The notes beneath the pieces are model-generated. The model made no database searches, was not told the origin of the DNA, and saw nothing but the letters and a program-made list of their open reading frames with translations. The translations under genes were made by a program, and so were the position numbers. Source: Saccoglossus kowalevskii (Eukaryota; Hemichordata; Enteropneusta; Harrimaniidae). Taken from it: 42,287 bases of DNA. The DNA lies in assembly GCF_000003605.2 (NCBI RefSeq), contig NW_003157243.1, positions 33,046 to 75,332 of the forward strand, in the 5' to 3' direction. Shown here in pieces: positions 771 through 41,335 of the stretch; position 1 is the first letter of the stretch; each line of letters starts with the position of its first letter.

Positions 771-893
771 TGTGCGGACTTGTTATGATTAAATGTCCAG
801 CTGATGGAGAATGTCTAATTTCGTTTGAAATGTGCAATGGATACGAAATGGACTGCAGCGACAACTTTGATGAATCGACGGCTATCTGTGGAG
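771..893 (+). CDS. LDLa exon (first visible, phase 1-1)
   Basis: The exon lies between a TTACAG acceptor and a GTGAGT donor and encodes one complete LDLa module with six cysteines (starting at the TGC at 773) and the closing acidic DES motif. The cysteine 4-5 spacing (CNGYEMDC) is one residue longer than the usual CDGxxDC, and the usual first Asp is Asn. The frame stays open a little upstream, with a hydrophobic stretch, but no ATG starts it. The splice reading fits better because all other exons of the gene are also phase 1-1. Confidence 0.8.
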
Positions 894-3800
894 GTGAGTG
901 AAATGAACACATTTCAGGTTATTTATGAAACAAGCCCCCTGACAATATTTAAAATCTACATAACTTTTGTATTTTGCGCTCAGTGCGGTGTGGGCAATTA
1001 TAAAAATCGGGTGTGGATGAGTACACTACTGCGAGATGGTTTCCTCGCCACCTAGATGTGAACCACATCTTTTTCACGATGATGTAACATTTTCTGTGCA
1101 GATTTTTTTTAAACATTCAAACCCAAGTTGACCATCCATCGTACCTTGGTGGTGCCAGCAATTGACAAGTGTTTAACCAGTAGTTGAACTTCTCCTTAAA
1201 CCTAAACATTAGAAATTGTATCATGTATATTGTTCAGGATTCCGACCCAAAGCCACGTGACTAACTTAATTTGAAAACGTAATATTAGTAGTAGTTTTCT
1301 GTAAACAAGTCTTCATTACGCCATGCCCTTGCATTCTGCCTGCTTAGACTTGCATATTTAAGATGTTTCTGGCATTTCTCGAGGTTTCTGTGCAAATTTA
1401 TAAAAAATAAAGTTTCATATTCGCCCAATTTTCGAGAGTAAAAGGAGACCCTTTCTCTAGGGCCACGGGCGTTAGCGCCGACATCAGGTGACCAAAGGAA
1501 ATGGAACAAGCGACGAGAAAGTGACTGACCGATCAGAATGCTGGAACCATTACTAGTTACCGCCCCTTTGTGGCTTGGTATGCCATGACACTTGAGGCGG
1601 GGACTAGCCAAGGTTTCCCTGTAGAAGAAGAAGAAAAAAACAAACTTGTAGCTGTGAATTACTATTATGCTTGTGAAAATCTATTGAAATGGAGTAAGTG
1701 TCACTTATTTTATTTTCGGGTTGCAAAATATTATCAAACAATTGGTCATATGGAGGTAGTATACTTGCACACACTTGTTCAGACAGTATATGCGATTACT
1801 AACGTACGATCGTTGGTTACTAAGTGGCGTTGGTGGGTGACATTTAAACCAAGACAAATGTCCAGTAACATCTCAAACAAATCGCACTAAATTTCCGTCT
1901 ACCGCGTTTTGTTGCACCAATTTCGGAAAAGAGTCTTGCGCGTCTAGTATGACGAGGGTTGAGCGATTGACGAATGAAAAACGTGTATTCACGTATCGGG
2001 TCATTGAATGTGTTCAAATGTAGGCGCGGAAGACCTGGAGTTTTACCCTCAAAAGGCGGCCGTGCTCGCTGAAGGTCTCTCAATCTAGCGCTTTTTTTCG
2101 TTTTAACAGATGCATTCGTGCATCTGTTAGTGCCTGGAATCGCTCATATTCGCAACCAGACAATTGATAATGCGAAACAAGAGTCGAACATTTATTTGTA
2201 CGACGAGCTTTGCTCTATTTCTCTTGCCATAGACTAGTTTCATTTTGATTAATATATATATAAACCACAGATCGTTTCGTGTATCGTTGCAAACTCTTAA
2301 TGTCACTAAGCCACGACAGATCGAGAAATTGTTGTAAAAGAAATGGTTTCCGTAAACAAAATATATCATTGCACTAATAACCCAGCCCAAATTTTGTAGA
2401 ATGTGTAAAACTAAAATAAGTGTGGAGGCTTATTTTAGAAAATGTAAGCATCGATTGACAATTCGAACCTGAAGTATTCTTTAGAATATATCCACGTTGT
2501 ACAACCACGTCTCTTCGTTACGTCGCAAGAATACGTGTATGCTAATAAGGAGCCTCGTTGTGAAATACGATAAACGACTCGAGTAGACCGCAACTTTCAA
2601 ACGCATTTTTAAAAATAAGGGGATTTTAGACGTAGTGTAGAAAAAATTTCGCCAAGACACTTAAATTGTCGTCTATGGAAATCTAACATATGGTACAAGA
2701 TTTAAGATGTGCTTTCTAACATTGCGTTTTTTTAACAGCGGAATGTGGACGTGGGGAATACCAGTGTTCAGATGGAAGATGCTTGCCAACTTATTGGGTG
2801 TGCGATGGGTATGGTGACTGTGTTGACGGTGGTGACGAAGCGCCCTCTATATGTGCAGGTGTGTAGTATCTAAAATTCACAATTAAGATTTGTTACATTT
2901 TTACAAGACAAATTACCTGTAGCATACCTCGATGCTCATTCATCAAGTTTTTAATTTCAGGTTGCAGTGTAGGATTCTTGAAATGCTCCGATGGAACGTG
3001 CATATCAACTGATAAAGCGTGTGATGGAATACCAAATGACTGTTCTGGCAATTATGATGACTCGCTAGAATTGTGTAGTAAGATATTTTTTTTAATTGTA
3101 TCTCTCCGAAACAATCTGTACATTTCAGGGGGAAAAAACTCGTACTTTTGAAGACACTCGTTCTACTGGGAAAAGGTTATGACAATCTCGCAAGTAGAAT
3201 ATGCCTCGTAAACCAAGGAACAATTGTACCATGTGCAGATGCGGTGTAACTGCTGTTGTGATGAAATAGCCAAATAATGAGCGTTCAAGGTCAAGTGACA
3301 GGAATGACAGCCTTTTTTGGTAAATGCAATGATGTTGCATTACAAGCCGGAGAAATACTTGTAATGTACAATTCAAATGGTTTTTTTTATCAGGAAATGG
3401 TAATACTGGATGCACACAATTTGCATGTTCAACTGGTGAATGCATTAGTCAAATGAATCTTTGTGATGGAATCGCAGATTGTGTCAGTGGTGAGGACGAG
3501 ACAAACTGTGGTTGTAGCTTTGCTGAATTTACCTGTACTGATGGCAGCTGTATTCCTTTATCCTACAAATGTGACGGAATAGTAGACTGTTCTGATGCGG
3601 GTGATGAAAGCACACTGACATGTAATCTAACCCCCTGCACATTGCTGCAATATGAATGCTCTACTGGTGAATGTATGTCTACAGATCAGCTATGTGATGG
3701 TATTAGTAATTGTCCTAGTGGTGAAGATGAGACGAACTGTGGTTGTACATGGGCTGAATTTACCTGCCCTGATGGTAGCTGTATTCCTTTATCCTACAAA

Positions 3801-6800
3801 TGTGACGGAATAGTAGACTGTTCTGATGCGGGTGATGAAAGCACGCTGACATGTACTGATCCATGCCCAGCATATGAATGCTCTACTGGTGAATGTATTT
3901 CTACAGATCAGCTATGTGATGGTATTAGTGATTGTCCTAGTGGGGAAGATGAGGCAAACTGTGGTTGCACATGGGCTGAATTTACCTGCCCTGATGGTAG
4001 CTGTATTCCTGTATCTTACGAATGTGATGGAATAGTAGACTGTTCTGATGGTGCTGACGAACAAACGCCACTTTGTGCAGTTTGTACAAATGAAGAATTT
4101 ACCTGTACTGATGGCAGCTGTATTCCTTTATCCTACAAATGTGACGGAATAGTAGACTGCCCAAGTGAAGTCGATGAAAGCCCTCATACATGTACTGATC
4201 CATGCCCAGCATATGAATGCTCTACTGGTGAATGTATTTCTACAGATCAGCTATGTGATGGTATTAGTGATTGTCCTAGTGGGGAAGATGAGACAAACTG
4301 TGGTTGCACATGGGCTGAATTTACCTGCCTTGATGGTAGCTGTATTCCTATATCTTACGAATGTGATGGAATAGTAGACTGTTCTGATGGTGCTGACGAA
4401 CAAACGCCACTTTGTGCAGTTTGTACAAATGAAGAATTTACCTGTACTGATGGTAGCTGTATTCCTTTATCCTACAAATGTGACGGAATAGTAGACTGCC
4501 CAAGTGAAGTCGATGAAAGCCCTCATACATGTACTGATCCATGCCCAGCATATGAATGCTCTACTGGTGAATGTATTTCTACAGATCAGCTATGTGATGG
4601 TATTAGTGATTGTCCTAGTGGTGAAGATGAGACAAACTGTGGTTGTACATGGGCTGAATTTACCTGCCCTGATGGGAGCTGTATTCCTTTATCCTACAAA
4701 TGTGACGGAATAGTAGACTGTTCTGATGCGGGCGATGAAAACACACTGACATGTACTGATCCATGCCCAGCATATGAATGCTCTACTGGTGAATGTATTT
4801 CTGCAGATCAGCTATGTGATGGTATTAGTGATTGTCCTAGTAATGAAGATGAGACAAACTGTGGTTGTACATGGGCTGAATTTACCTGCCCCGATGGTAG
4901 CTGTATTCCTTTGTCTTACGAATGTGATGGAATAGTAGACTGTTCTGATGGTGCTGACGAACAAACGCCACTTTGTGCAGTTTGTACAAATGAAGAATTT
5001 ACATGTACTGATGGTAGCTGTATTCCTTTATCCTACATGTGTGACAGAATAGTAGATTGTCAAGATGGTGCTGATGAACAAACTCCACTTTGTGCAGTCT
5101 GTGCTCGTGGAGAATTTGCCTGCCCTGATGACAGCTGTATTCCTTTATCCAACACATGTGACGGAATAGCAGACTGTTCTGATGGTGCTGACGAACAAAC
5201 ACAACTTTGTACAGATTGTACAAATGAAGAATTTACCTGTACTGATGGCAGCTGTATTCCTTTATCCTACAAATGTGACGGAATAGTAGACTGTTCTGAT
5301 GCGGGTGATGAAAGCACACTGACATGTAGTCTAACCCCCTGCACATGGGCTGAATATACCTGCCCTGATGGTAGCTGTATTCCTTTGTCTTACAAATGTG
5401 ACGGAATAGTAGACTGTTCGGATGGTGCCGATGAACAAACACCACTTTGTACAGTTTGTACAAATGAAGAATTTACCTGTACTGATGGTAGCTGTATTCC
5501 TTTGTCTTACGAATGTGATGGAATAGTAGACTGTTCGGATGGTGCCGATGAACAAACACCACTTTGTGCAGTTTGTACAAATGAAGAATTTACCTGTACT
5601 GATGGTATCTGTATTCCTTTATCCTACAAATGTGATGGAATAGTAGACTGTTCTGATGCGGGTGATGAAAGCACGCTGACATGTAATCTAACCCCCTGCA
5701 CATTGCTGCAATATGAATGCTCTACTGGTGAATGTATTTCTACAGATCAGCTATGTGATGGTATTAGTGATTGTCCTAGTGGGGAAGATGAGACAAACTG
5801 TGGTTGCACATGGGCTGAATTTACCTGCCTTGATGGTAGCTGTATTCCTATATCTTACGAATGTGATGGTATAGTAGACTGTTCGGATGGTGCCGATGAA
5901 CAAACTCCACTTTGTGCAGTTTGTACAAATGAAGAATTTACCTGTACTGATGGTATCTGTATTCCTTTATCCTACAAATGTGATGGAATAGTAGACTGTT
6001 CTGATGCGGGTGATGAAAGCACGCTGACATGTAATCTAACCCCCTGCACATTGCTGCAATATGAATGCTCTACTGGTGAATGTATTTCTACAGATCAGCT
6101 ATGTGATGGTATTAGTGATTGTCCTAGTGGGGAAGATGAGACAAACTGTGGTTGCACATGGGCTGAATATACCTGCCCTGATGGTAGCTGTATTCCTTTG
6201 TCTTACGAATGTGACGGAATAGTAGACTGTTCGGATGGTGCTGACGAACAAACACCACTTTGTACAGTTTGTACAAATGAAGAATTTACCTGCCCTGATG
6301 GCAGCTGTATTCCTTTATCCTACAAATGTGACGGAATAGTAGACTGTTCGGATGGTGCCGATGAACAAACACCACTTTGTGCAGTTTGTACAAATGAAGA
6401 ATTTACCTGTACTGATGGTATCTGTATTCCTTTATCCTACAAATGTGATGGAATAGTAGACTGTTCGGATGGTGCCGATGAACAAACACCACTTTGTACA
6501 GTTTGTACAAATGAAGAATTTACCTGTACTGATGGTAGCTGTATTCCTTTGTCTTACGAATGTGATGGAATAGTAGACTGTTCGGATGGTGCCGATGAAC
6601 AAACACCACTTTGTGCAGTTTGTACAAATGAAGAATTTACCTGTACTGATGGTATCTGTATTCCTTTATCCTACAAATGTGATGGAATAGTAGACTGTTC
6701 TGATGCGGGTGATGAAAGCACGCTGACATGTAATCTAACCCCCTGCACATTGCTGCAATATGAATGCTCTACTGGTGAATGTATTTCTACAGATCAGCTA

Positions 6801-9800
6801 TGTGATGGTATTAGTGATTGTCCTAGTGGGGAAGATGAGACAAACTGTGGTTGCACATGGGCTGAATTTACCTGCCTTGATGGTAGCTGTATTCCTATAT
6901 CTTACGAATGTGATGGTATAGTAGACTGTTCGGATGGTGCCGATGAACAAACTCCACTTTGTGCAGTTTGTACAAATGAAGAATTTACCTGTACTGATGG
7001 TAGCTGTATTCCTTTATCCTACATGTGTGACAGAATAGTAGATTGTCAAGATGGTGCTGATGAACAAACTCCACTTTGTGCAGTCTGTGCTCGTGGAGAA
7101 TTTGCCTGCCCTGATGGCAGCTGTATTCCTTTATCCAACACATGTGACGGAATAGCAGACTGTTCTGATGGTGCTGACGAACAAACGCCACTTTGTACAG
7201 ATTGTACAAATGAAGAATTTACCTGTACTGATGGCAGCTGTATTCCTTTATCCTACAAATGTGACGGAATAGTAGACTGTTCTGATGCGGGTGATGAAAG
7301 CACACTGACATGTAATCTAACCCCCTGCATATGGGCTGAATATACCTGCCCTGATGGTAGCTGTATTCCTTTGTCTTACGAATGTGACGGAATAGTAGAC
7401 TGTTCGGATGGTGCTGACGAACAAACACCACTTTGTACAGTTTGTACAAATGAAGAATTTACCTGTACTGATGGTAGCTGTATTCCTTTATCCTACAAAT
7501 GTGACGGAATAGTAGACTGTTCTGATGCGGGTGATGAAAGCACACTGACATGTAATCTAACCCCTTGCACATTGCTGCAATATGAATGCTCTACTGATGA
7601 ATGCATTTCCACAGACCAGTTCTGTGATGGCGTTAGTGATTGTCCTAGTGGCGAAGATGAGACAAACTGTGGTTGTACTCTGGCTGAATTTACCTGCCTT
7701 GATGGTCGCTGTATTCCTTTATCTTCCAAATGTGATGGAATAGTAGATTGCCCAAGTGAAGTTGATGAGAACCCACGTAAATGTCCTGATCCATGCCCAG
7801 CACATGAATGCTCAACTGGCGAATGTATTGCTAATTTCCAAATTTGCGATGGCATCAGAGATTGTGTTAATGGTGAAGACGAATTAGATTGTCCAAATGT
7901 ATGCTCTGAAGTAGAGTTTGCATGTCCCCAAGGTGGTTGCATACCACTGTCGTCTCTGTGCAATGGAGTTGATGATTGTCCTAGTGGTGCTGATGAGAAT
8001 CCTTTCAGATGTGGTAGATTTATACATCATGAATGTAAATCTGGAGAATCTATTGAAGCTCATCAGTTCTGTGACGGTACCATAGATTGTGAGAGTTCTG
8101 AAGATGAACTCGATTGTGGAACTGGATGCTTAGAATCTGAATACACATGTTTGTCTGGACATTGTATATCCTTATTTCGTGTATGTGATGGTGTACCGAA
8201 TTGTGCAACTGGTGAAGATGAAAGTGTCGATCTCTGTGGATGCAATGTCAATCAATTCGAATGCGGTAATGGGAAATGCATATTGGGAGAATACGTTTGT
8301 GATGGTGATCCTGACTGTCCGTATGGCGAAGATGAAGACGATTGTGGTTGTGATGAGGCTAGGGAGTTTAAATGTCCCACCACTGGTGCATGTATTTCAA
8401 TCATCAAAGTTTGTGATGGTATATCAGACTGTGAATATGGCGAAGATGAACGACTGCCAGAATGTCTTCCAACGTTGGAACCAATTACTCCAGAACCAAC
8501 CATTGAAGGTAACTGCCATACACGTGACGCTTGTCTATAATACAAACTTTTAGCTAAATCTGTAAAACTATTTTTTTTATTCTCGTGTCACTCAGTTAAA
8601 CAATTGGCGAATGGGTAGCTGCAAGCCCAGAGATGTGCTTACCAAGATTTATAATTATTAATTATGAAACTTCTTTAGTAGTAGAGTTTATCTAGTATTA
8701 CTAATTTAATGATCTTCCATTCCAATAGAAAAAATATCTAGATTTAGAATTGAAGAGAGATTGGACGCCATAGAAGAGAAGTGCAATGAAGTGGAAGAAC
8801 ATGTAGAGCAACATGAATCATTAAGTGAGTTTTCAAGAAAAAAACATTTTCGTCTTTGAATATTTTTTTGTTGGAAACATTGTCGCATTGTCATGAAGTG
8901 GGTAAGTTGTGACCACAAGCGCAAAAAAAACTATAGTCGTTCTGTTGCAAAGAAAATAGTAATCGATCGTCAAAACCTCGTAGGTTTTTAGTATTAACTC
9001 CACACAATTTCATTCTTAAAGGCAGAGAAACAGTCGCTAGATTCATTGGCTATACAATTGCACGTGGGTAACCTCCACAACGGGTAACTTGGACCATGAA
9101 GTGTGAAATAGTGTGTACTTTTCTAACTATTCACTCTATTCCTGCAATGTAAACGCGCCCCCCCCCCCATTTGGAATAACTGTCACAATCAACTGGGAGT
9201 GGAAGCTTCATTAAGAAAGTAAGATTGTCCAATTATATTCTAGCACACTAATTTGGAAAAGTGTTTAGTGCTTACCTCATAAAAAAACCTTGGTCCAGCG
9301 GATCTTTAATTATCTGAGGAAATCTGTTGCCAATTTTTAATTCAATTCTTTTTCAGATGAGGAAATGTACACAGAACTCTTGGGAAGAATCGAAGCTCTA
9401 GAAGAACAGCTCGGTGCACTTGCACGTAGGTCTTCTCATATTAATTGCAAAACGATTGTACTAGTATATCTGAGTCATGCATGCAATGAAATGTAAATGA
9501 GTGGGGGTGACGTCAACACTGCGTGCGTGAATAGTTTTTTTGGCTATTTTCAAGCTTAATTGGCATTACATAATTGGTTAATTTTACTGAAGTGCACCTT
9601 AACGTCATTCCCTGTGAACAAACTGTATTTCGACATTGCGCTAAATAAAAGAAATTCAATACGATTTGTGCGGCTACGAGTCTATCACGTGTTAGAAAAA
9701 TCGCCCATGGATGCATTCAAAAAAATGCAAATGAACGTATATGTTAATTCGCTACATGTTGGGCTCATTCTACAATATTTTCTGAAACTAGTGTAGTTTT

Positions 9801-10472
9801 TTTTTTAAACAAAATGCTGATTATTAAACGAAACGTGTACTGCAAATGTTAAATGCATTTTCGTTTGCAAATGTCCTTTTAGTAGGTGTGGATTCGCGTC
9901 GCGTTCATTTCGGACAGTTGTTTTAAAAGTTGCGTGGTGTGAAGAGTCTTACAATTGCGGTGATGTTTGCCATGGTCGCAACTTTGAATCTTGTGTTAGT
10001 ATGCCTGTGATTGTATATGGTTCGCTTTTCACAAATATCCATACAATTTGAAAGGTACTTTAGGGAGTTTATACTAAATATTCGAGGAGATAAAGAAATT
10101 ATAACTGGTTTCCATGCCGAAACCTTTTATGCAAGCAATGCAAATCACTAAAAGGCATTACTTTAATTTCTAGCTCCTGCAACGAATGAAAATGTCACCG
10201 TCAAGTCTTTTCACCGTATTGAGTCGAAGTTAGGAAGAAAATCTCTAAGACAAGAAACTACCGGTGAAGAGAAGCAGGCAAATTCCGGTCGCTCGGCAAC
10301 TCTAGCAAAAATTATACCCAGCAGCAATGTTCGTGGACAAATTGAGAACACTAGAGAAACTAACCGCCAGGGAAACTTAACCAGAAACATCACGAGGAAG
10401 AAGACTTTTCTTCATGCTAAGTTACTGTCGTTGAAAAAACTTGCCTCGAGCAAAGCTAAACTGGCAAAATGA
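771..10472 (+). CDS. LDLa-array protein with coiled coil, multi-exon, 5' incomplete
   Basis: Seen: seven exons join in one frame: 771-893, 2739-2858, 2961-3077, 3394-8508, 8729-8824, 9357-9425 and 10174-10472. Each internal junction has AG/GT sites, and every junction is phase 1. The visible product is about 1,978 residues: 47 LDLa modules, a Pro/Thr linker, about 55 residues of charged heptad-like sequence, then a basic tail ending at TGA 10470-10472. The first exon enters in phase 1, so the start codon and any signal peptide lie upstream of the window. Family knowledge: LDLa modules are about 40-residue, six-cysteine, calcium-binding extracellular domains used for ligand binding. The acidic Ca ligands (CDGxxDC...xDE) are kept in nearly all modules. 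Inferred: a secreted, possibly oligomeric, multivalent binding protein. It lacks the EGF, YWTD and transmembrane parts of LDL receptors, so I give no receptor name. Function unknown. Confidence 0.85.
894..2738. other. Intron of the LDLa gene
   Basis: This intron of 1,845 bases has a GTGAGT donor and a pyrimidine-rich AACAG acceptor. I found no additional six-cysteine exon. Around 1440-1645 there is a GC-richer stretch ending in GAAGAAGAAGAA followed by A-rich sequence, which may be the tail of an old SINE, but no clear A and B boxes were identified. Confidence 0.5.
2739..2858 (+). CDS. LDLa exon 2 (phase 1-1)
   Basis: After a T-rich tract and AACAG acceptor, 120 bases encode a six-cysteine LDLa module (ECGRGEYQC...CDGYGDC...GDEAPSIC), followed by a GTGTGT donor. 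It has Trp at the position whose backbone binds calcium in canonical modules, where the giant exon mostly has Tyr. It is clearly diverged from the giant-exon modules, so it was not part of their homogenisation. Confidence 0.85.
2961..3077 (+). CDS. LDLa exon 3 (phase 1-1)
   Basis: Acceptor TTTCAG and donor GTAAGA bound 117 bases that encode one LDLa module (CSVGFLKC...GTCIS...CDGIPNDC...CS-type ending). Like the exon at 771, it has one extra residue between cysteines 4 and 5. The donor leaves phase 1, which matches the acceptor of the giant exon. Confidence 0.82.
3394..8508 (+). CDS. Giant exon with 44 tandem LDLa modules
   Basis: The exon starts after TTTTATCAG and runs open for 1,705 codons to GAAG|GTAACT, so the in-frame stop at 8538-8540 is intronic. 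I count 44 modules of 34-41 residues. Modules 2-38 use a few recurring openings: [33 protein letters not shown] and CARGEFAC. Their centres are nearly invariant (CIPLSY, then CDGIVDC). Modules 39-44 are diverged. Side-chain calcium ligands at both Asp positions and the final Asp-Glu are kept in almost all; module 40 has CNG instead of CDG. Module 41 lacks cysteines 1 and 3. The exon ends in a Pro/Thr-rich linker ([12 protein letters not shown]) that leads into the coiled-coil exons. ATG 3453 is an internal methionine, not a likely start, because the LDLa frame continues upstream to the acceptor. Confidence 0.9.
3513..7800 (+). repeat. Homogenised coding tandem array (LDLa modules 2-38)
   Basis: Units of about 102-123 bases repeat about 37 times with near-identical DNA, including synonymous positions. 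Higher-order periods are visible: a three-module block repeats at 339 bases (modules 5-7 and 8-10). Another three-module block repeats at 348 bases (modules 20-22 and 23-25) and again at 29-31. A block holding the rare CARGEFAC module (about 5030-5460) recurs 1,986 bases downstream (about 7016-7446). Flanking modules are much less alike. Copy number may vary between individuals, and assembly may have collapsed or expanded it. Confidence 0.9.
8729..8824 (+). CDS. Coiled-coil exon 1 of the LDLa gene
   Basis: Acceptor CCAATAG and donor GTGAGT bound 96 bases (32 codons, phase 1-1). The peptide is Glu/Lys-rich with hydrophobic residues spaced as in heptads ([20 protein letters not shown]) and one cysteine that could link chains. 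It continues in frame from the LDLa exon linker. Confidence 0.78.
9357..9425 (+). CDS. Coiled-coil exon 2 of the LDLa gene
   Basis: Acceptor TTTTTCAG and donor GTAGGT enclose 69 bases (23 codons, phase 1-1). They read [20 protein letters not shown], which extends the helical heptads of the preceding exon. The two exons together give about 50-55 residues, long enough for a short dimer or trimer coiled coil. Confidence 0.75.
9426..10173. other. Intron before the C-terminal exon of the LDLa gene
   Basis: This intron of 748 bases runs from a GTAGGT donor to a TTTCTAG acceptor. It contains an open frame without an ATG start that shows no domain. Nothing else is recognised. Confidence 0.6.
10174..10472 (+). 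CDS. C-terminal exon of the LDLa gene, basic tail and stop
   Basis: The acceptor TTTCTAG is followed by 98 codons and TGA, entering in phase 1 as the preceding donor requires. The sequence is rich in Lys, Arg, Ser and Thr. It has a possible N-glycosylation site near the start (NVT) and two more further on (NLT, NIT). It ends in a strongly basic, helix-prone stretch with repeated Leu-Lys and Ala-Lys. No domain is recognised and no membrane segment is present. A-to-T-rich DNA follows, but I see no canonical AATAAA in the 150 bases before the next transposon. Confidence 0.75.
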
Positions 10473-16069: not shown

Positions 16070-19000
16070 CTATGAAAAAAATAAATACAAGTGGTTAATG
16101 TTCTCAATAACACAAATAAACTGTCTATGTTATGCTTCCAGATAGCATTTATTAGTTTATTAGTAGTGAATGTACACAAACTATGTTTTTGAACAATTCA
16201 ATAATTTCATTCACATGCCACTGTAACTGTAGATAAAAAACAATCGGGTACAAATATCTAAATCAGCATAAAATACCATTAGCGATTGTATAACATGTTA
16301 CAAGTTTTTCCACCAGAAATCAGAATATATATATATAATAATATATATAACAATAATATATATAATAAAATATGCCACTCTATTCTATTGAACTTGAGTC
16401 TTAAACAATGGGTAAGTTTGGTATCCTCTGCTGTCCCTGAGCTCCAGTAAGATGTTGTATCATATTATCATTCATTTTCATCAACATTTTTCTCTATTTG
16501 ATTAACTAATCATGACCAGTAAATCCAACAGATTTAGTTGTAAAAATGATTAAATTGTGTGTATAGGTAGATATTTTAATTCATAAATACATATATTCAG
16601 AATAAAACCAATAATTGCTAAAATTTTAACTTCCTACATGTATATATATTAGATGATGACACGGAAATAGTAGCAGTTGTCAATATAAATGGTAAAATAA
16701 GTGTCAAAGAAAAATAGTTCATTACATATTCAATAAAGGCTATGCATAATAAATACACATGTTGTACTGATGTTGACATCTAAGGTTGAATATAACAAGC
16801 TACATGTGTACCGGGATGTACAATAATATTTCCCTTATAAATATTTAAAGTTGTCCAATTTTATGATTTCAACAAGTCATTGAAAATAACACAGTCCCTG
16901 TTAAAGTTCTCTTTGTGCTCGTCACATTAAAGCGGAGGGGTTGTCGCGAGCGTGTCCTTGAAACTTGAGTTCCAAGTCGCGTATACAACAGATTGTTTAT
17001 TTACATCAAAACATGTGTTCCATGTAGTAGTAATATGGCCAAAAATAAAAACAGCCGTTATTCTGCCATCTTTGATCTGATTATGAAACACACTGATATG
17101 TATGATGTATGTGCCAAATACGAATGAAAATGGTACATAAATTGTGGAAATATAGTAGTAACACCAACAAGTCAAATGGCTGTCAATCGGCCATCCTTGA
17201 CCAGATTTTGAAACAAATTGTCATGGACATGCATTCTAACATGTATAAAGTACATGTATGTGCCAAATTTGAATGAAAAATGACAGAGCATGTCCAAGAT
17301 ACCACAAAAAAACAAAACAAGATGCCTGCCAGTCGACCATCTTTGATCCAATTGCGAAATAAATTGTCATGGACATGTATCCATGTATGTATAATCTATG
17401 TACCAAGTTTGAATGACAACTGACAAAGCATTTTCAAAAAACAAGATGGCTGCCAGTCGGCCATTTTGAATCGAATCGCTAAACAACTGCATGTGCATAT
17501 GTCCCACATAAGGTACTAGGCACATGCAAAGAATGAACGGAATCGGTCCACAGGATTCTGACACAGACTGACGCGTGGACGGACACACGGACGGACGGAC
17601 AGACTAAGAAATTCACGGACGATCGGGGACATGTATCCTAACATGTATGATCTATGTACAAAATTTGAATGAAAACTGACAAATCATGTCTAAAATTGCA
17701 ACATTTTCAAAAAACAAGATGGCTGCCAGTTGGCCATCTTGGATCCAATTGTAAAATAAATCGTCATGGACATGTATCCTAACATGTATAATCTATGTAC
17801 CAAGTTTGAATGAAAACTGAAAAAGCATGTCCAAAATACAACATTTTCAAAAAACAAGATGGCTGCCAGTCGTCCATTTTGAATCGAATCGCTAAACCAC
17901 TCCATGTGCATATGTCCCACATAAAGTACTAGGCACATGCGAAGAATGAACGGAATCGGTCTAAGGGATTCTGGAATATGACTTTGAACGGACGCACGGA
18001 CGGATGGAGACCGAATTATAAGTCCCCGTTTTCTGACTTAGTCCGAACGGGGACTAAAATAGTGATCAAACTAGGTTTTATGTTTGCTTGCTCCCCTTGA
18101 TCAGATAACAAACTTGTACTTACTAGATACATATTCCATCGCCTTCAGGAACTCCTCCTCATTTATGTGAACACCTATCGTAATTTCTGGAACACCGAGC
18201 GTCGAAAGCAGACGAGGTGTGACTAGAACTTTCTGCAGTATATCTCGTAGTGTGCCATCGGTATATCTTTTCCACAATAGTTGTAACCCTTCCCGGTGGC
18301 TGCTTGAAAAGACCAGTCTAATACAGGCTTGTTCCACTCTTGCTAGCACCAGTCCGGCAGCATAGCATAGCTGGCTCAATGCTTGTTGACTTTCACGCCA
18401 CTCCTGTATGCTTGTATGCTTAGGATCCGAGAATTCCATATCCATGTGGATGCTTCTCAGAAAACGATTGTCTTGAGTACGTGTTGCCATTATTGAGGCA
18501 TTTATCCCAAGCTCTCCTGAAGATAATAATAAAGTACAAACTCAACAATATCGGTAAATGAATTTTCTCAACCACTTTCTTTGATGTGCACTAGACTGGT
18601 AATAAAAGTAATGCAACAACAATAAGGACAAGCTATACAGCATGTATAGAATTTGTCTAGCACTAAATAACCGATATAACGCCATTTTGATTTGAATCAT
18701 GAAACATAATGTACTACTGCTGTGATATCAGACATTAATTAACCCATTTCTCCACTAAAATGTTACTGGACAGTGTAGCATTCTACTCAAACCGGGCCAC
18801 CACAAGAAAGCTTAGAAAGAACTTCCATATGCTGAGAGTATTTTAATATGTCTTAAAAGACATATTACAAATTGATTAGCCTTCCAAACAAGAAACTTGG
18901 CAATTAATATTTGTCTGATATCTGAGATGTACAACGTGAAAACTATTTGATTCCGTTATTTAATTAAATTACAGAAATACAAAATACAGAAAAGACGTAA

Positions 19001-22000
19001 ACATTGGTCATTTTCAGTCTTATTTATTCCTGAGCACCTCTACTACAAATTCAATTTAAATCAGATTTTTTGAGATACCAGGAATTGAATACTAATAATT
19101 AGATATGCAGGTTTTTCATTATTAAACTGATCACGTCTGCGGATTACCCTAGAGCATCTCTGAACCAAACTTCAATGAAATGTGATGATTATGCACATTG
19201 GGCAAATTCAGCAGTTAGCGTGCTTGAATTTCTATCTAAAACTAATGCATTGTTCCCAGGGACTTATATATCAAGCCTTATTGAAATGCAATTATTATGC
19301 AAACTAATTAGGTCAGTGTTATATTCCAGGGCACGTGTGCCAAGTTTTATTATAATGTGATGACTAATTCTTATTACAAATCGATAGAAAGCCGAAAAGT
19401 ATTATTATTGCAAATTAGGGAATTATTATGGATGTATATAAGTGGATTTAGGCCAGACTTTTTGTATTCCTTGTTTCTCGAGTTTTTATAAGGCAATTTT
19501 TTTGACGAGGGCGAAAAAAAAATAAAATTAATTCTTTTTTTCCATTAGATTTGTGTGATTCTCAAAAGAATTGTAAACGAGATCGGAGAGAAGAAATGAA
19601 ATAAAATTTTACTCCATGTATAACCTTGCTTCTCATCTGCACAAGACTTCGGTACTTTGATCATGATACTCGAAAATGCAAATTGGATTTGGTATGAGGC
19701 AGGCGGTGAAAAAATTAAGATAAAAATAATATTTTTTAGCAATTTTTTGCGCTTACAAGTGAGAAATTACGCTGAAATAAAATTTTATTTTTATTTCATT
19801 TTCTGCTCTTGTTCATTCGGCGGGTTCGCGAAACAAGATCTGCACAAAATTACAGACTATCAATGTACAAAATTTCATTGAAATGTGATTAGAACTTGAG
19901 ACATTAATGGAAAAGCTGAATTATGAATTATTCGGCAAATTCGGTAATATGCACACATTTTAAACAGGTTTGTTCATAGTCTTAAAGCAACCATTTACCA
20001 CATTTCTTTGAAATGCAGTACAGTAGAACGTCGATTATCCGAACTGTTGGGGGGACATGCTTTTTGCTCGGTTATGCAAACAGTTCGGATATGCGATCTT
20101 GTGTGGGCGTGCTCAAGTTTACAGGCTCACCACACACAAATTCTAACGCACATGACTGTAATGAAATCAAACAATAATACGTGTAGAGTGCGTCATTAAA
20201 AACATTTTTATTTAATCAGTAATACATTGTAATAAAAATGTTGCATGCTGGAATGTTAAAAAGTGTTTCAAAATGTCCGTAAAATGTAGCGATAATAAAG
20301 TTCTTGGGAAAACCAAGTCCCGGAACCAAGTGAAGACGGATTTCTCTGAATGATCGTCATAGGCTGTTTTCGTTATCTTTCGTTTCAGTCCTGCACTTGA
20401 ATCCATTTTACTGAAAAAATCCAGCAGCTTTTGTTTTGCCTTGATATCGGATATCATCGATTTACCAACACCATACTCGGTAGATAGATTGCTTGCGGTT
20501 TCGCCACGTTCTAGTCGATTTATAATTGACAACTTTGCGTCCAAATCAAGTACACAGCGTTTGCATTTCACTGGGGGTAGCCACGCCAACGCTAGATAAA
20601 AGACGCTGATAAAGTAAACAGGTGAAAGGTCGCTTCGTATAGATCGGCTAGCGGCTCGATGTTACCAGATTGCTCTGGGATTTTCGAATGGTAAACTGCT
20701 ACAAGATGTCCCGATTTTATTGGATTCAGCAAAGTTTTTAACACCTAGAACGATTGACATAATAAATTGTTGGCTACTGTGATCATCGGACGTAAACACT
20801 TCGACGCTGTGAACCATCAAACGGCCCGCCGACTGTGGTCATTGGTTGCCGTTGTCTGCTGATAAACCATCAAAGAGGCACACCAAAGGGTTGTCGTTTC
20901 GCCTCTCTTTTTCACTGCACTATTAAACTGGCGTCGCTTCTGTGGCAAGACATCCCAGAAGTTATTTTCTTTCTTTTTTTATTCCGAAGAGGATGTGACT
21001 TCTCATACTGGACATTAAAATTAAAAATCGGAAAAAACATGGGATCGGCTCATAGCCACGTTTCTTTGACNNNNNNNNNNNNNNNNNNNNNNNNNNNNNN
21101 NNNNNNNNNNNNNNNNNNNNNNNNNNNNNNNNNNNNNNNNNNNNNNNNNNNNNNNNNNNNNNNNNNNNNNNNNNNNNNNNNNNNNNNNNNNNNNNNNNNN
21201 NNNNNNNNNNNNNNNNNNNNNNNNNNNNNNNNNNNNNNNNNNNNNNNNNNNNNNNNNNNNNNNNNNNNNNNNNNNNNNNNNNNNNNNNNNNNNNNNNNNN
21301 NNNNNNNNNNNNNNNNNNNNNNNNNNNNNNNNNNNNNNNNNNNNNNNNNNNNNNNNNNNNNNNNNNNNNNNNNNNNNNNNNNNNNNNNNNNNNNNNNNNN
21401 NNNNNNNNNNNNNNNNNNNNNNNNNNNNNNNNNNNNNNNNNNNNNNNNNNNNNNNNNNNNNNNNNNNNNNNNNNNNNNNNNNNNNNNNNNNNNNNNNNNN
21501 NNNNNNNNNNNNNNNNNNNNNNNNNNNNNNNNNNNNNNNNNNNNNNNNNNNNNNNNNNNNNNNNNNNNNNNNNNNNNNNNNNNNNNNNNNNNNNNNNNNN
21601 NNNNNNNNNNNNNNNNNNNNNNNNNNNNNNNNNNNNNNNNNNNNNNNNNNNNNNNNNNNNNNNNNNNNNNNNNNNNNNNNNNNNNNNNNNNNNNNNNNNN
21701 NNNNNNNNNNNNNNNNNNNNNNNNNNNNNNNNNNNNNNNNNNNNNNNNNNNNNNNNNNNNNNNNNNNNNNNNNNNNNNNNNNNNNNNNNATTTGATGAAG
21801 TTTGTGTTTTTAGGACATTTTTTATTTACAGTGGAACACTGGTGTGGCGTAATAGGCTTGTCTGAATTTAGGAAATTATTGGATACTGTAATTCGTTTCA
21901 TTGTTTGCGCAGACACTGTAAACAATGAACGTACACGTGAAAGACGTCGGATTACATATTGATAACAGCTTTATTGAAAGTGTTGCACCAGGAAATCACA

Positions 22001-22990
22001 CAAGGCGACTGTAGTATTTATTGTTCACAGTTGACTTTTGTATTATAGGGAACACAGCCAGACATGCATGCAAACTTTGGGGGACACAGCAGGTTCGGAT
22101 AACCGAACATTTCGGATAATCGACGTTCGGATAATCGACGTTCTACTGTACTTGAAATATCAGCAGGAAAGCCAAAAATTTACTAATTATGCAAATAAGG
22201 TAATTAATATGCAGGGATAACCCAAAACTTGACAACCATGTACCAAGTTTTATTTTAATGAGCTGATTAGCAGCGATATCAGTGGAAAAGCAGACAATTG
22301 ACTAATTATTATGCAAATTAGGTAATTAATATGCATAATATGCACATTAGCCCAGAGCATCTATGCATCAAGTTTTATCAAAAACCAAAATATGCTTCTT
22401 GACATATCAATGGAACAGTCATGCAGACACACTAACTGCAAAGACCATTGTGTGCTCTGCATACGGTCAAAATGGAAAAAATTTTAATAGTAGGCCATAC
22501 CACATGCATTATCTACCTAAACATGCCAGCATGTTTCTAAGCATGTACACATAACATATGCCAATTACCACCTAATATAATGTAATAACATATAATATCT
22601 CTTACCCTGATTAAGTATTCTATACCCATGCGATATTTCCCAGTCTATAATTTTACTTTTCAATCCAAACTGCATCATCGTTGAAAATAAATGACAAAGT
22701 AAATTCAGTTTGTTTTCTTTAATGTAGTTACGTTCATGTAAGTAGTTGAATACACTTTCAGCTGTTGTCAATCTGGCCATATGTCTCTTAGCGATGTAAT
22801 CACCCACTAATAGGTTTTTCATCTCTTCAACTTCATCTGGACTGAGTGCATGGGCTAGAGTAGAAAATAATTGCTTTATAGGTGAGATGCATAGTTCTAT
22901 ATCGGTTCTGGTTACTTCTGGTTGTATGTTAGTATATCCTAAGATAGATCTTGGACATAAACGTTCCAGGCAGTCCAAACAGGCTCCCAT
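15972..22990 (-). CDS. DED plus TRADD-N-like adaptor protein, three exons
   Basis: Seen on the minus strand: exons 22990-22606, 18516-18124 and 16069-15972 join in phase 1 both times to give 291 residues. Residues about 36-118 match the death-effector domain pattern, with six amphipathic helices, LSPDEVEEMKNLL, a VFNYLHE helix and an acidic end. Residues about 170-258 resemble the N-terminal domain of TRADD: a CIRLVF strand, LLWKRYTDGTL, LQKVLVT, a GVPEITIGV strand and EEEF. The tail of 32 residues is unassigned. Family knowledge: DEDs assemble death and innate-immune signalling complexes with FADD or caspase-8-like partners, and TRADD-N mediates adaptor interactions. Inferred: a cytoplasmic signalling adaptor, with partner unknown. 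No protease, kinase or NTPase domain is visible. The first intron holds an assembly gap, so a further exon cannot be excluded. Confidence 0.72.
16315..16372. repeat. AT microsatellite
   Basis: Runs of TA and ATAATA repeat with minor interruptions, within the second intron of the DED/TRADD-N gene. Confidence 0.8.
16925..18060 (+). mobile_element. Helitron/Helentron-like element with tandem cores and ACGG microsatellite
   Basis: Units of about 150 bases recur (about 17040, 17170, 17320, 17440, 17700, 17850). Each contains AAGATGGCTGCCAGTCGGCC and, further on, ACCAAGTTTGAATGAAAACT or variants. Two unit blocks each end in a conserved tail with ACGG microsatellites (about 17575-17605 and 17990-18010). 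The right end is a perfect 10-bp hairpin, AGTCCCCGTT (18021-18030) with AACGGGGACT (18046-18055), followed by CTAA-A. Known: tandem cores, a GACG-type microsatellite and a 3' hairpin with CTRR describe non-autonomous Helentrons, including the bivalve pearl/CvA type. The 5' end is uncertain. It lies in an intron of the DED gene. Confidence 0.6.
18124..18516 (-). CDS. TRADD-N-like exon
   Basis: Acceptor TTATCTTCAG opens the exon, and GTAAGT (18123-18118) closes it after TCT A, giving 131 codons in phase 1-1. The open frame would continue nine codons past the donor to a TGA at 18101-18103. The strong GTAAGT and the in-phase acceptor at 16070 favour splicing, but a readthrough isoform ending SSKYKFVI is possible. 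The first ten residues link to the DED, an alpha-helical stretch follows, and then comes the beta/alpha TRADD-N-like core. Confidence 0.7.
18525..19100. other. Intron of the DED gene, one dispersed repeat
   Basis: About 18885-18975 resembles 26920-27010: both carry AATATTTGTCTG, then GAGATGTACAACRTGAAAAC. So a dispersed, diverged repeat is present. Nothing else is recognised. Confidence 0.4.
19100..20020. repeat. Diverged tandem repeat, left part
   Basis: Loose units of about 110-140 bases recur with variants of CCAGAGCATCT, CCAAGTTTTATTRAAATG and TTATGCAAATTAGG. The same family continues on the other side of the Tigger element (22149-22420). Units are diverged, so boundaries are approximate. 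Confidence 0.5.
20212..20589 (-). pseudogene. Tigger transposase N-terminus (CENP-B/HTH_psq type), truncated
   Basis: The frame contains KRCVLDLDAKLSIINRLERG, then ETASNLSTEYGVGKSMISDI and KAKQKLLDFFSKM, the classic first helix-turn-helix of Tigger/pogo/jerky-type transposases, which binds the TIR. After KSVFTWF the family pattern stops and unrelated residues run to a stop, which marks an internal deletion that removed the second HTH and the whole DDE nuclease. No ATG precedes the domain in this frame; the frame opens with TTG. It is non-functional as a transposase. Confidence 0.8.
21071..21789. other. Assembly gap (719 N)
   Basis: All bases are N. Open frames that cross it are artefacts. 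It lies inside both the Tigger element and the first intron of the DED/TRADD-N gene. Confidence 0.99.
22149..22420. repeat. Diverged tandem repeat, right part
   Basis: This continues the repeat found left of the Tigger insertion. AATTAGGTAATTAATATGCA and close variants recur at about 22190 and 22315, each with a nearby CCAAGTTTTAT or CATCAAGTTTTAT. Confidence 0.6.
22606..22990 (-). CDS. DED exon (predicted first coding exon)
   Basis: ATG at 22990-22988 opens the frame. An in-frame TGA lies just upstream (22999-22997), and a possible acceptor (ACCAG or ACATAG after a pyrimidine tract) precedes it, so the ATG may be in the second transcript exon after a 5' UTR exon. The donor is CAGG|GTAAGAG, phase 1. 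About 35 residues with several cysteines (CLDCLERLC) precede the DED. The usual RxDL motif near DED helix 6 reads QFGL here. Confidence 0.72.
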
Positions 22991-22999
22991 CACTGGTCA

Positions 23000-27539: not shown

Positions 27540-28330
27540 ATTAGAATATCTATCAAATGAATTGTTGTATTGTTTGGTTGTCACGTGACTGTCCCTTAAA
27601 GTAGGTCACATTTTGTGTTTGGCGAAAATTGTGAACTTTAGCCATGTTCAAAGTACGCTACATGACAAAGTAAAATATATTTTTAATTCAACTTATTATC
27701 AGAGGTGAACAAATGTATTGTCTATCAAATAGATGCTTCTAGAGTTTCGGGTCATGACGTTCGGTCACGTAGTTGTCCTTGAAATTAAGCCATTTTTTGC
27801 ATTTGTTGAACATACGCTACGTGACGAAGTGAACAATAATTCTTATTCAACTTCCGGTCAAATGTAAATCTATGTATTGTCTATCAAATGAATGCTTGCA
27901 GAGTTTCGGGTCATGACGTTCAGTCACTTGGTTGTCCCTGAAAGTAGGCCATTTTTTGCATTTGACGAAAATTGTGAATTTTAGCTTTGTTGAACTTACG
28001 CTACGTGACGAAGTGAACAATAATTCTTATTAAACTTCCGGTCAAATGTACATCTATGTATTGTCTATCAAATAAATGCTTGTAGAGTTTCGGGTCATGA
28101 CGTTCAGTCACTTGGTTTTCCCTGAAAACAGGTCACTTTTTGTGCTTGACGAAAATTGTGAATTTTAGCCATGTTCAAAGTATGCTACTGTACCTGACAA
28201 ATCAGGATTCTAACTCAACTTCTTGAGGCAGTCATCTATGTGTTGCCTATCAAGTAAATGCTCGTAGAGTTTTAGGGAGTGACGTTTAGTCCCTAGAAGT
28301 CTCTGAAAATATACCATATTTAGACATTGT
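27540..28330. repeat. Minisatellite, about 160-185-base unit
   Basis: Anchors TTGTCTATCAAAT (27546, 27717, 27876, 28060, 28242, with variants) are spaced 171, 159, 184 and 182 bases apart. GTTTCGGGTCATGACGTTC and CTACGTGACGAAGTGAACAA recur within units. About four and a half copies are present, with increasing divergence toward both ends. Confidence 0.85.
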
Positions 28331-29092: not shown

Positions 29093-32000
29093 TTAAGGTA
29101 GCGAGAAGGGTTTTGTAACGTTTTCGAATAAAACATTCCCTGTCTGTTGTCTCATTCAGAACAGTAATTTAGCTTATATATTTCAAAAGACTAAGTATAG
29201 AGGTACAAGTTCGCACAAACTGGACAGTCATTGTTTACATAGTGATCACGTGACATCAAAAATGGCGAACCTTGTAAAAATGACTAAGTCCGCCATTGCG
29301 AGAGCACACTGCGGAATTTCCTGGTGAAATTTACATCATGCATTGTCCGTAATCAAGTCCATTGAAATGTGTCCTCGGTAATCAAAAGACCTATTATTCC
29401 GATTTCTATGCAGGTCTGTTTTTTTGTCCCCAAATTATTTCATACTTGACACCTTTAACAGACTATTATTCTGTGACAACGCATTTTCTTTAAAAACCCA
29501 GACATATTTCGCACCATCATTATCTTTTGAACGATAACTGCGAGTTTGAATGTCCTAGTCCGAACGCACTTGATTTGGCGGCGGTCCTAATGAGTCGTAC
29601 TCAAAACTTCAACTCGTAAAAAACGCGAAAACAGTTTTGGTTAATAAAACATTGTACATTTGCTGTATTGATATACACTAAAAATAGCCAAACATATTAA
29701 CCACTGATATCATAGTACTCATACAGAGTGTCAGATAATGAATAATTTCAAGCTCGAGCGTGAAAAAGAAAACTGCTGGCATTTGAGTCCGTACTCCAGG
29801 ACGTTCGGGTTTCCATTGTTATGCGAACGAACAACGATGAATAATCCTCTGACAAACATTACTGTCCCACTGTACACGCTGACAGTTTACAAACAAGCTA
29901 ATCCTTCAAGTGTATCTGATAAGAGTTCTAATAAAACGGTTTTCATGGTGAAACAAAATGGCCGATGTTTGAGTGCGACACTGAGTGGCAGATTTTTCTT
30001 TCCCTCGTCTGTCAACGCCTTCTTTTCTTTGCCATTGTGTTAGAAAAAGTGATACTAGTAAAATAGAATATTGACTTGGGAAATAAAACGAGTTAAAAGA
30101 AAGTTGTGCAAAGTTACAGTACTTATTTCGCACAACATCCCGTCCGCTTCCGCTTTCCAATCACCTTTTCTCCCGCTTTTGCGACCGCTTGTAGAATTCG
30201 ACTGGACAATTTCCGCTTTAATTTCGAACACGCAAACCCCGAAATATCAACGCCCGCCCGCCCGCCCACTTGCTCGCGCGCATTTAAAATTCAGACTAAT
30301 AGAAAAATTTCCGAGGTTCACATTGTCTTATAATTGTTAACTGGTTTTTTATGAATGTTGAACAGCTGACAAAAGGTCAAATACTTTTTGTTTTAACTAT
30401 CTATAATTATATGCACGCAATCTGACCCTTTGACCTCGATTTGACTTGGACTGAATATTTTATTTTAAACAATATTCTGACATGAAATACAAAATGTATT
30501 TCAACACAAGTACGACATGGTTGTCTGGGTTTTCTTTTCTGATTGTCGAGTCTTCGCGATGTGTTTTGTATAATTATTGTTGTTTTTCCCCGAGGCAAAG
30601 ACAAGCTGAAGGACCATGAAGCTGAATGACAGTTCATGGGCTGAGTGAAAGGAAATATTTCTCAGCCTAAAATAAAACCTAATATTACACTTCTTTGTTT
30701 ATTTGTTATTTTTACATATGTTTTTCATGACAGTATGTCTGTAAATATCTAGAAAAATCTTGTCTTTCGTTTATAATTTTGATTGTTTGGAATGTCTGTT
30801 AACCGTGTCCCAATAATTTGTTTGGAATGTCGATCCCAGTTGGTTTCTCCTTACTGAGTTTAGGAAGGGCGACGATCAACACAATCAGTCGAGACATGAC
30901 AAACATTGACCCTAATTATTCATGGGGACCATGTCCGTAATTTGTGGGCTGAAACCCCAAATAATTAAACAAGTATTATTATTATAATATATATTTTATT
31001 TAACATCGCAAAACTACAACAGAGCTAGAGTTGTTCGCGGTCAAACAGCCGCATTGAAGACGGTGCAACTTCAACTAGCCATTTCTTACCTTGAAATAAA
31101 AATTCGACGAAGAGCATCAGGGAAAATATTAATAATCATTCTTATCAATGCTTTATTTTATTTAAATCTATGAAATTCACGAGTTTTTAGACATTTGTTG
31201 GCAACTTCCGCGCTAAAAAAGATTGAAAATGTGGGTGTGGTTCTTTGCGAGGTCCTGTTGATAATACGGACAAATATGGTTCTGTGACCCAGGTCGTGCT
31301 CCGATCATGTGACTTTCAGCCAATAAATGATGTTGTAACAAAGCATATTTGACGCTAATTGAAGGGTCTTCGTACCATCATCCAATTTCCGGCGTCGATT
31401 CACATAGTGTTTTTGTGCTGTGGGAGGCTTCAAAATTATTCGCTGAAAAACATCAATATATTTTGACAAACGGGGGGAATTTGACCATACCAGGTTTAGA
31501 TACATTAAAGTCCACGGCGAATCAGTTTTCTCTACAAGTTGGGAAATAAAGTAAACCAGAGTAGGGTCGATGATTGTCAGCCCTGAAGGACTTCCGTGTG
31601 AATCCTGAGTTTCGAATTTTTCATCGACTGGCCACCAAATAGTTATGGCTATAACTAAATCTGACACGTTTTTTAAAGCCTAATAAATTATTCATACATG
31701 TCAAGCTCGATTTTTTCAGGGCATGTGGCCGTTTTTAGTCGAAAATATTATTTTGTGGGAACACTTTCACGGTACTATACGGTATAGACTGAACTCATTC
31801 AATGATTATGACTTATTTTTGAAAATTGAATGTCAAATTTTACCAGATTATTTTGGGAAATAATCATTAACATTTCCTCGTTTCTCTGCTCTGTCAAAAT
31901 GAGTTACCCATGCTTTTTTCACGTAACTGTCTCATTAAAATAATAAAAAATATTACATCTAGAACAAGCACCCAAAACACGTAAGAGGTTCCAGTTCAGT

Positions 32001-39939: not shown

Positions 39940-40600
39940 TCTCCAAAAAAAACATAGAGTTTTTGTTTAATGTGTTTCTGAATTAGAGTTTATAATACAA
40001 AAATTTGATCAGTTGTTCTGTGGTTTTTTCTGAAGCCGGCCTGGTTGTTTTTAAGTATTTTATTTTCTTCAATGAAACAGTTTATGCGTTTATTTATGAT
40101 TGAACAGAAAAATTTACCAATACAACTTGAAATTGATATTTCCCTGTAATTTTGAGGGTCTAATTTGAGTGATGCAACTTAAATTCCAAATATCTGAGAA
40201 AAATGGGCTACTCAAAACTAAGTTAAACAATTTTGTAAGTGAATTAATTAGATAGTTTGAACTGTATTTTAATTGTTTCGAACAGAAACCATCCAAGCCT
40301 GGTGCTTTTTTTGATTTTAGCATTTTCATTGCTCTAATAACTTCTTTATCACTAATAACCTTATCTAAGTGATCATTTAATATCATTTTCTCTTCATGCT
40401 CTGATAATTCTTTCATTATATTTTCCTGGAAACTATTACCATCTTTTTCATTGTTTAGTGTTGCATACTATTCCACCATTTAGTTGTTGAAATTGGATTA
40501 TTACAGTTTTGATCTGTAATTTTCATATGGTTAATAATTTTCCAAAATTCTTTTGAATTTCCTTGTTGAAGAGTTCTGAGTTTACTAAGATAATTTTCTT
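39940..40600 (-). pseudogene. LINE reverse transcriptase N-terminal fragment
   Basis: Conserved LINE RT segments appear in order: FWKIINHMK (linker), VIRAMKMLKSKKAPGLDGF (RT motif 0/1 region), then YRPISISSCIGKFFCSIINK in a shifted frame, and NQAGFRKNHRTTDQIFVL (motif 2 region). The YADD catalytic region is absent. The frame changes near 40140, with stops near 39990. It is not functional. Confidence 0.8.
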
Positions 40601-40927
40601 GGATTTGTTTTTTCTGTTGTTTTATAAGTTTCTTAAATCTTTTCTTTTTAGAATAAAGTTTGTCTTAGTTGCATATCAAATGAAAATTTATTTATCAACT
40701 CTGCACAAGCCATTAGATCACATTTACTCTGGTTGCATTGTCTAACAAACCATCAGGGATTCGTTTTTTTTGTTTGTTTTTGTGAATATTTTTATTTGGA
40801 TTAATTTTATTAAAAATACCTGAAGCTGAACGTTTTAGCTGATTAAATTTCTGGGATGCTATATTTACATTGTTATACTTAAAATTGTGTTATTAAACTT
40901 CAATTTTACTCTGTATAACTTTTGATG

Positions 40928-41335
40928 CTAATCATGGTATTTCAAAGCAGATAATTTATCCCATTTCCACTTCCCAGGCATTGGCTCTAATTTAGTGTGT
41001 TCATGTTGTGTAGTGTGCACATTAAGTAATGTTGAAATTTGGCAATGATCTGAATAACATGTAAAACTGTGGAATTTGAAATATTCAAATTTGTTGAGAA
41101 GATCAGTTGTTGCTAAGCCATAGTCTACCACAGTTACCATTCTAGTGATAATTTACGTACAGTTTCCACAAATATCATCTGCTATGCGACCATTTAGAAT
41201 TCTCAAGTTACAATATTTACAAAGATCACATAATAATTTTCCATAGCTGTTTTTGTTTTTATCCATGTTACAGCAGTTCAAATTAGTATCTATCATACAA
41301 TTTTGAGGTAGTGGTACACGTCTTGAACTGTCACT
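40928..41335 (-). pseudogene. LINE endonuclease fragment
   Basis: Minus-strand frames read DTNLN, then YGKLLCDLCKYCNLRILNGR, a GNCT-like segment, a stop, then TVVDYGLATTDLL and YSDHCQI. This order (D-x-N-x-N ... N-G-R ... T ... S-V-x-D-Y ... S-D-H-x-P/Q-I) is the C-terminal half of the apurinic-type endonuclease of LINEs, including the catalytic SDH. WKWDKLSALKYHD is the usual start of the linker. A stop codon interrupts it near 41155. Confidence 0.75.

Follow-up and report, generated by a model that had tools for sequence, protein, structure and literature searches.

In a 42,287-nucleotide stretch of the Saccoglossus kowalevskii genome (the window; C4670:33046-75332, contig NW_003157243.1, of a 572-Mb assembly in 4830 contigs), one gene on the forward strand was found to carry 44 LDLa modules in a single uninterrupted exon of 5115 nucleotides, E4. 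Seven recognisable exons (E1 to E7) form this gene, and their splicing yields 1978 residues with the sole stop at the terminus. The splice sites were deduced from the sequence and from conservation on two further contigs, C2959 and C2484, and all six introns have GT-AG ends and phase 1. Based on its sequence, we consider it fairly probable that the gene encodes a secreted, coiled-coil-joined and calcium-dependent multivalent binder, which would have grown through in-frame unequal exchange.

The giant exon and its gene

The open frame around E4 extends from 3333 to 8540 (1735 codons from stop to stop), within which the exon is bounded by AG at its 5' end and GT at its 3' end and comprises 1705 stop-free codons. 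A Pfam search of the joined frames, listed at a permissive limit of E 10, returned 44 PF00057 stretches in E4 with 1197.5 bits, and an independent count by C4-C5 anchors also arrived at 44, in agreement with a first-pass annotation that had described 44 modules in one uninterrupted exon. The same annotation had flanked this exon with one-module exons and put all boundaries in phase 1. The phases and the three single-module exons on the 5' side were recovered as described, but the three exons on the 3' side are without an LDLa match, and the coiled coil and basic tail had been missed. At the curated PF00057 cut-off of 24.1 bits, E2 scored above and E1 and E3 below, despite six cysteines in each of the latter two. 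In NCBIfam no match was found. The features of the gene are listed below in window coordinates; the ratios of nonsynonymous to synonymous substitution rates (dN/dS) between contigs are rough, with 15-65 synonymous sites behind each.

771..893, + strand: E1, a 123-nucleotide exon of phase 1-1 with a single LDLa module; Pfam 15.5 bits, under the cut-off; its homologous sequence on C2959 is divided between two frames
2739..2858, + strand: E2, a 120-nucleotide exon of phase 1-1 with a single LDLa module; Pfam 44.6 bits; 79% amino acid identity to the C2959 exon
2961..3077, + strand: E3, a 117-nucleotide exon of phase 1-1 with a single LDLa module; Pfam 20.6 bits, under the cut-off; 76% amino acid identity to the C2959 exon
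3394..8508, + strand: E4, the giant exon of 5115 nucleotides and phase 1-1 with all 44 tandem LDLa modules; from the open frame, Pfam and the cysteine count
3411..3509, + strand: E4 module 1, divergent 5' edge of the array; best partner at 73.7% nucleotide identity
3513..7670, + strand: homogenised core of E4, modules 2-37; best-partner nucleotide identity 91-100% for all 36 modules
4772..5503, + strand: block of 732 bases from an older in-frame duplication, repeated 1986 bases downstream with 23 differences
5391..5976, + strand: block of 586 bases from a recent in-frame duplication, repeated 1047 bases downstream at 6438-7023 with 2 differences
7674..8465, + strand: E4 modules 38-44, divergent 3' edge, including module 41 (8016-8117); mean pairwise nucleotide identity 52.9%
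8729..8824, + strand: exon E5, predicted acidic coiled-coil segment with RLDAIE (trimer motif of the RhxxhE type); 66% amino acid identity and dN/dS of 0.16 to the C2484 exon
9357..9425, + strand: exon E6, predicted coiled-coil segment with RIEALE; 68% amino acid identity and dN/dS of 0.31 to the C2484 exon
10174..10472, + strand: exon E7, basic terminal exon of 98 whole codons with stop TGA at 10470-10472; counterpart on C2484 with dN/dS of 0.41

The 262 cysteines of E4 (43 x 6 + 4) are distributed as six per module in 43 of the 44 modules. Module 41 is without exactly C1 and C3, the remaining cysteine pattern being intact; these two are presumably paired in LDLa modules, in which case one whole disulfide was lost. 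At the positions that we take to hold the calcium ligands, the set D..D..DE (D at C4+1, D at C5-1, and DE) was found in 41 of the 44 modules, with Asn at one place in modules 3, 40 and 42. The array had been called calcium-binding, which these residues suggest it would be, and four conserved acids are described for LDLa modules (PMC8239462). Overall, E4 contains 359 Asp/Glu vs. 32 Lys/Arg, corresponding to an isoelectric point of 4.05.

Two types of module could be distinguished by their C5-C6 spacing, 13 short and 31 long. All 43 intermodule linkers are 1-4 residues long and their length is tied to module type: short-to-long joints consist of a single Gly in 11 of 13 cases, long-to-long joints of two residues in 16 of 18, and long-to-short joints of three or four residues in 10 of 12, the length of one joint depending on where the degenerate module 41 is set to start. 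If linker ends are counted alike, 29 of the 43 joints are shorter than the 3-10 residues given for LRP1 (PMC8239462). Six N-glycosylation-type sites occur in E4, all of them NLT, a string also contained in the six NLTP joints between modules.

The layout of E4 is extreme among the LDLa frames examined in this genome. Genome-wide scoring covered 150 places out of 1658 first-look candidates, and the counts are lower bounds; 25 of these places lie in the E4 array, one in a gap-spanning frame on contig C1003, and 124 in frames of at most 187 amino acids. In the window and 21 other loci, 18 of which were chosen for long frames (the C1003 frame, with its run of N, as well as C2959 and C2484 were left out), 48 of 57 LDLa frames contain one module, six contain two, and three, five (contig C3803) and 44 modules occur once each. 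Because the frames were read ignoring introns, these numbers are an upper bound on exon content. Single-module frames prevail, and the earlier claim that most animal LDLa proteins use about one exon per module holds in this respect inside this genome. Judged from titles and the starts of abstracts, none of the open-access papers listed in literature searches seemed to describe a comparable single-exon LDLa array, which is no proof of novelty. No relatives were found in a collection of viral contigs, and in one of genome contigs two pattern matches occurred with none confirmed by tblastn; given that these collections consist of viruses, bacteria and archaea, the absences weigh little.

Growth of the array and its relatives

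Each of the modules 2-37 has a partner at 91-100% nucleotide identity, while the mean over all their pairs, in which two module types are mixed, is 73.6%. For module 1 and modules 38-44 the best-partner identity is 61-82%, and modules 38-44 share a mutual mean of 52.9%. The description of the array as homogenised therefore applies to modules 2-37 and not to the divergent edges, and the array holds many differing module variants, not one repeated unit. The six self-matches listed for E4 have offsets of 339, 348, 699, 900, 1047 and 1986 bases, all divisible by 3, which supports the earlier proposal of growth by in-frame duplication within one exon. The match of 586 bases with 2 differences is the best and youngest. 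Ratios of nonsynonymous to synonymous differences (pN/pS) in the six duplicated blocks were 0.19-0.27, with the youngest value based on two differences, indicating that changes between blocks mostly did not reach the protein; in the core, dN/dS was 0.30 for the 27 long modules and 0.48 for the nine short ones. Since only modules 2-37 are homogenised and modules 1 and 38-44 are divergent, E4 probably held several old modules prior to the expansion of its middle part, and this expansion fits either unequal exchange or gene conversion.

Contig C2959 carries homologues of E2 and E3 (79 and 76% amino acid identity, respectively), an E1-homologous stretch and, further upstream, one extra exon with an LDLa module; a second array also begins there and runs into a 15.9-kb gap. 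Between the contigs, rough dN/dS values of 0.26 for E2, 0.17 for E3 and 0.25 for modules 1-3 were obtained. The second array contains a 216-bp unit repeated at 98.5% over 194 comparable bases, yet its six modules have at most 79% amino acid identity to any E4 module; judged from these identities, it has been homogenised separately from E4. Homologues of E5, E6 and E7 were found in the same order on C2484 (10,124 bases), of which the E7 tail is the least conserved part (34% identity). C2959 and C2484 are likely the two ends of one paralogue. The window starts at the border of a run of N (C4670:27112-33045), where the C2959 paralogue has its additional LDLa exon, and for this reason further 5' exons of the gene are probably missing in the gap. 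The length of the array, in a gapped assembly, and the 5' end are the weakest points of the analysis.

Two long frames were rejected as giant exons: a 5559-amino-acid open frame on C2959, nearly all of which is the 15.9-kb run of N, and a 1864-amino-acid frame on C1003, which is mostly N (4.3 kb). Other LDLa frames with basic ends were observed. On C1003:215001-225000 (L016), from 8425 (+), LDLa modules stand at the edge of the gap and the same frame continues for 297 lysine-rich amino acids (69 Lys/Arg vs. 29 Asp/Glu). On C3803:268001-278000 (L019), 4726-5616 (-), the five-module frame has a basic tail (20 Lys/Arg vs. 7 Asp/Glu in 90 amino acids); a nearby upstream frame appeared by eye to be signal-peptide-like, followed by PPGQL-type repeats.

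Two alternatives concern the origin of the array rather than the protein. Identical modules lying at least 1 kb apart, the assembly gap directly upstream, the entry of the C2959 array into its own gap and the stop in the C2959 copy could all point to a copy number created by the assembly or to a decaying pseudogene. Against this stand the 1705 stop-free codons, the low pN/pS of the duplicated blocks, the many distinct module variants and the conservation of the flanking exons, and we hold an artefact or pseudogene to be quite unlikely. A partial retroposition, by which a cDNA recombined into the gene, would agree with introns being kept among the upstream modules and absent among the 44, but is very unlikely to have taken the place of growth within the exon: the divergent edge modules share E4 with the core, and the C2959 counterpart of E4 likewise opens with more than one module per frame, in positions that correspond. 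Because both edges are divergent within the same exon and the counterpart is multi-module, the array was already free of introns when its core expanded; a still older retroposition may have preceded that state.

The encoded protein and competing explanations

Exons E5, E6 and E7 gave no LDLa match and nothing reaching a Pfam cut-off. Two motifs of the RhxxhE type, which favours trimers (PMC5940361), are present, RLDAIE in E5 and RIEALE in E6, and two were reached in 0.2% of 20,000 shuffles of these exons. In the best register of E6, all six a/d positions are hydrophobic (Tyr counted), and the first motif is kept on C2484 as RLTAVE. E7 is basic, with an isoelectric point of 11.3 and 22 Lys/Arg vs. 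7 Asp/Glu, as is its C2484 counterpart (9.7, 17 vs. 10). No membrane helix was found in E4-E7, the top 19-residue hydropathy mean being 0.97.

From these features we propose an extracellular protein, secreted or at least C-terminally soluble, in which at least 47 LDLa modules in a row would be followed by a short coiled coil, probably joining three chains, and by a basic tail. Each module would fold around one calcium ion and present an acidic pocket for lysines of a ligand. In LRP1, the lysine-gripping site is reported to consist of four acidic residues and an aromatic one, and acid pockets of this kind to grip the lysines of RAP (PMC8239462). The short linkers of E4 would fix the spacing of neighbouring modules, so that a basic ligand could be gripped by many of them together, and oligomerisation would multiply this grip. 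The array would have grown by unequal exchange in an already multi-module exon, and continued exchange would keep the modules alike, we propose because copy number and avidity outweigh the identity of single modules.

Several observations weigh against this proposal. The heptad fit of E5 is weak, with hydrophobic residues at 5 of 10 a/d positions in the best register, and the C2484 counterpart of the second trimer motif, TIEALE, departs from the RhxxhE pattern. At the position that we take to be the aromatic one of the lysine site, 26 of the 44 modules have Tyr and not one has Trp. As CR.30-31 of LRP1, which is without the conserved tryptophans, is reported not to bind RAP (PMC8239462), the E4 modules may bind lysines weakly or not at all. 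Modelling of modules 5-10 with AlphaFold2 gave a mean confidence score (pLDDT) of 44.8, too low to be usable, and shows nothing. The N-terminus of the gene lies inside the assembly gap and could hold either a signal peptide or an N-terminal membrane anchor, and one strict filter scan upstream on C2959 revealed no signal-peptide exon. The C2959 copy has an in-frame TAA, one lost cysteine and a broken E1 frame, and may be decaying or misread.

The array could alternatively belong to the ectodomain of an endocytic receptor of the LRP/LDLR type with its EGF, beta-propeller and membrane parts in other exons, as LRP2/megalin, VLDLR and LRP4 are its best solved relatives. However, downstream of E4 the gene continues with the predicted coil and closes with a basic, stop-terminated tail, the homologues of these exons keep their order on C2484, and E4-E7 are without a membrane helix, although the N-terminus lies in the gap. 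By regular expression only, the six frames of the window contain no EGF patterns and no credible YWTD repeat, YWTD-like strings being limited to one at 30532 (+) and one at 40203 (-) within a retrotransposon-like frame; the receptor reading is very doubtful. A chain resembling the linkers of annelid haemoglobin, where LDLa domains borne on a triple-stranded coil hold together the subunits of a large extracellular assembly, would likewise unite a coil with LDLa. The array weakly matches linker L3 (4u8u; E 2.9e-4), and linkers are described as trimerising via a coiled coil and binding globins via LDLa (PMC5383013, PMC6400237). In annelid linkers the coil is reported to be N-terminal and accompanied by an LDLR-like domain and a beta barrel (PMC5383013), in contrast to the C-terminal coil, the 44 modules and no other domain by Pfam here, and such a function is hardly probable. 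An acidic array and a basic tail in a single protein, the basic tail of the C2484 counterpart and the basic ends of the LDLa frames on C1003 (297 amino acids) and C3803 (90 amino acids) would be in line with docking of the tail into LDLa pockets of neighbouring chains, giving head-to-tail oligomers and a calcium-dependent gel or matrix. We consider this rather unlikely. The tail is the least conserved part (34% identity; dN/dS 0.41), the presumed pocket position is never Trp, seven other multi-module frames stop 2-19 residues past the last module, and glycosaminoglycan binding or removal as a propeptide are other possible roles of a basic tail. On C1003 and C3803 the tails are parts of open frames, putative as exons, from loci fetched for matching the array, and their recurrence is a lead only. 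A wider form of this idea, a self-polymerising secreted family in which coil-trimerised acidic LDLa arrays are bridged by the basic tails of neighbours into a calcium-switched extracellular gel, with mesh and strength tuned by in-frame changes in module number, appears unlikely.

Surrounding sequence and known systems

The remainder of the window contains a death effector domain frame at 22571-22996 (-), above the Pfam cut-off with 43.5 bits, and a sub-threshold TRADD-like N match at 18107-18541 (-) (19.5 vs. 23.7 bits); together they probably mark an adaptor gene of the apoptosis type that runs opposite to the LDLa gene. A CENP-B N-terminal domain at 20218-20661 (-), also above the cut-off (29.8 bits) and near 719 bases of N (21071-21789), is suggestive of a remnant of a pogo/Tigger-type transposon. 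Frames at 39993-41152 (-) resembled a non-LTR retrotransposon by eye, with a reverse transcriptase match below the cut-off (24.4 vs. 29.6 bits), and a 184-base unit occurs in two tandem copies with a 92% match at 27794-28169. Rfam and tRNA scans of the full 42,287 nucleotides gave no matches. Elsewhere in the assembly, the mitochondrial contig C4830 (L043/L044; 17,037 bases) encodes COX1 on one strand and ND1, ND2 and COX2 on the other. Its TGA codons align with Trp at 5 of 7 positions, ATA with Ile at 5 of 8 and with Met at none, and the single AAA examined with Lys. The genes follow the order COX2-ATP6-COX3-G-ND3-R-ND4L-ND4-H-S-ND5-CYTB, in which ND3, ND4L and ND4 were assigned by eye and the contig, with COX2 and ATP6 at its two ends, was treated as circular; this is the deuterostome order, and with the codon usage it fits an acorn worm.

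Giant tandem-repeat exons with a small module in many copies and growth by in-frame duplication are also found in C2H2 zinc-finger arrays, with another module and another role. Among LDLa proteins, the best PDB matches are the clusters of the LDL receptor family (LRP2/megalin, LRP1 and VLDLR), which like E4 have tandem LDLa modules with the same six-cysteine pattern and calcium-ligand residues. They differ by their EGF, propeller and membrane parts, none of which was found in the window by regular expression or, for E4-E7, by hydropathy, and LRP2 matches occur in four separate stretches vs. one unbroken run in E4; the short joints and the lack of Trp at the presumed pocket position set E4 apart as well. 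Annelid giant haemoglobin linker chains are secreted proteins that join LDLa to a trimeric coiled coil (PMC5383013, PMC6400237), but in reverse order and with one LDLR-like domain and a beta barrel (PMC5383013). SCO-spondin, also giant and secreted, has LDLa modules in tandem, ten ahead of two EGF domains and 13 in total in chick, along with many other domains (vWF-D, TSR, EGF, CTCK; PMC8487547), none of them found in E1-E7 by Pfam.

The gene offers a clean case of a modular animal protein leaving the plan of one module per exon, which is the prevalent one in the LDLa frames examined in its own genome. Its old edges and young core allow the order of events to be read, and a relative has been homogenised separately. 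If calcium and lysines are bound as the residues suggest, the protein would be a natural binder of very high valency with short, fixed linkers, which could be used to ask how module number sets avidity.

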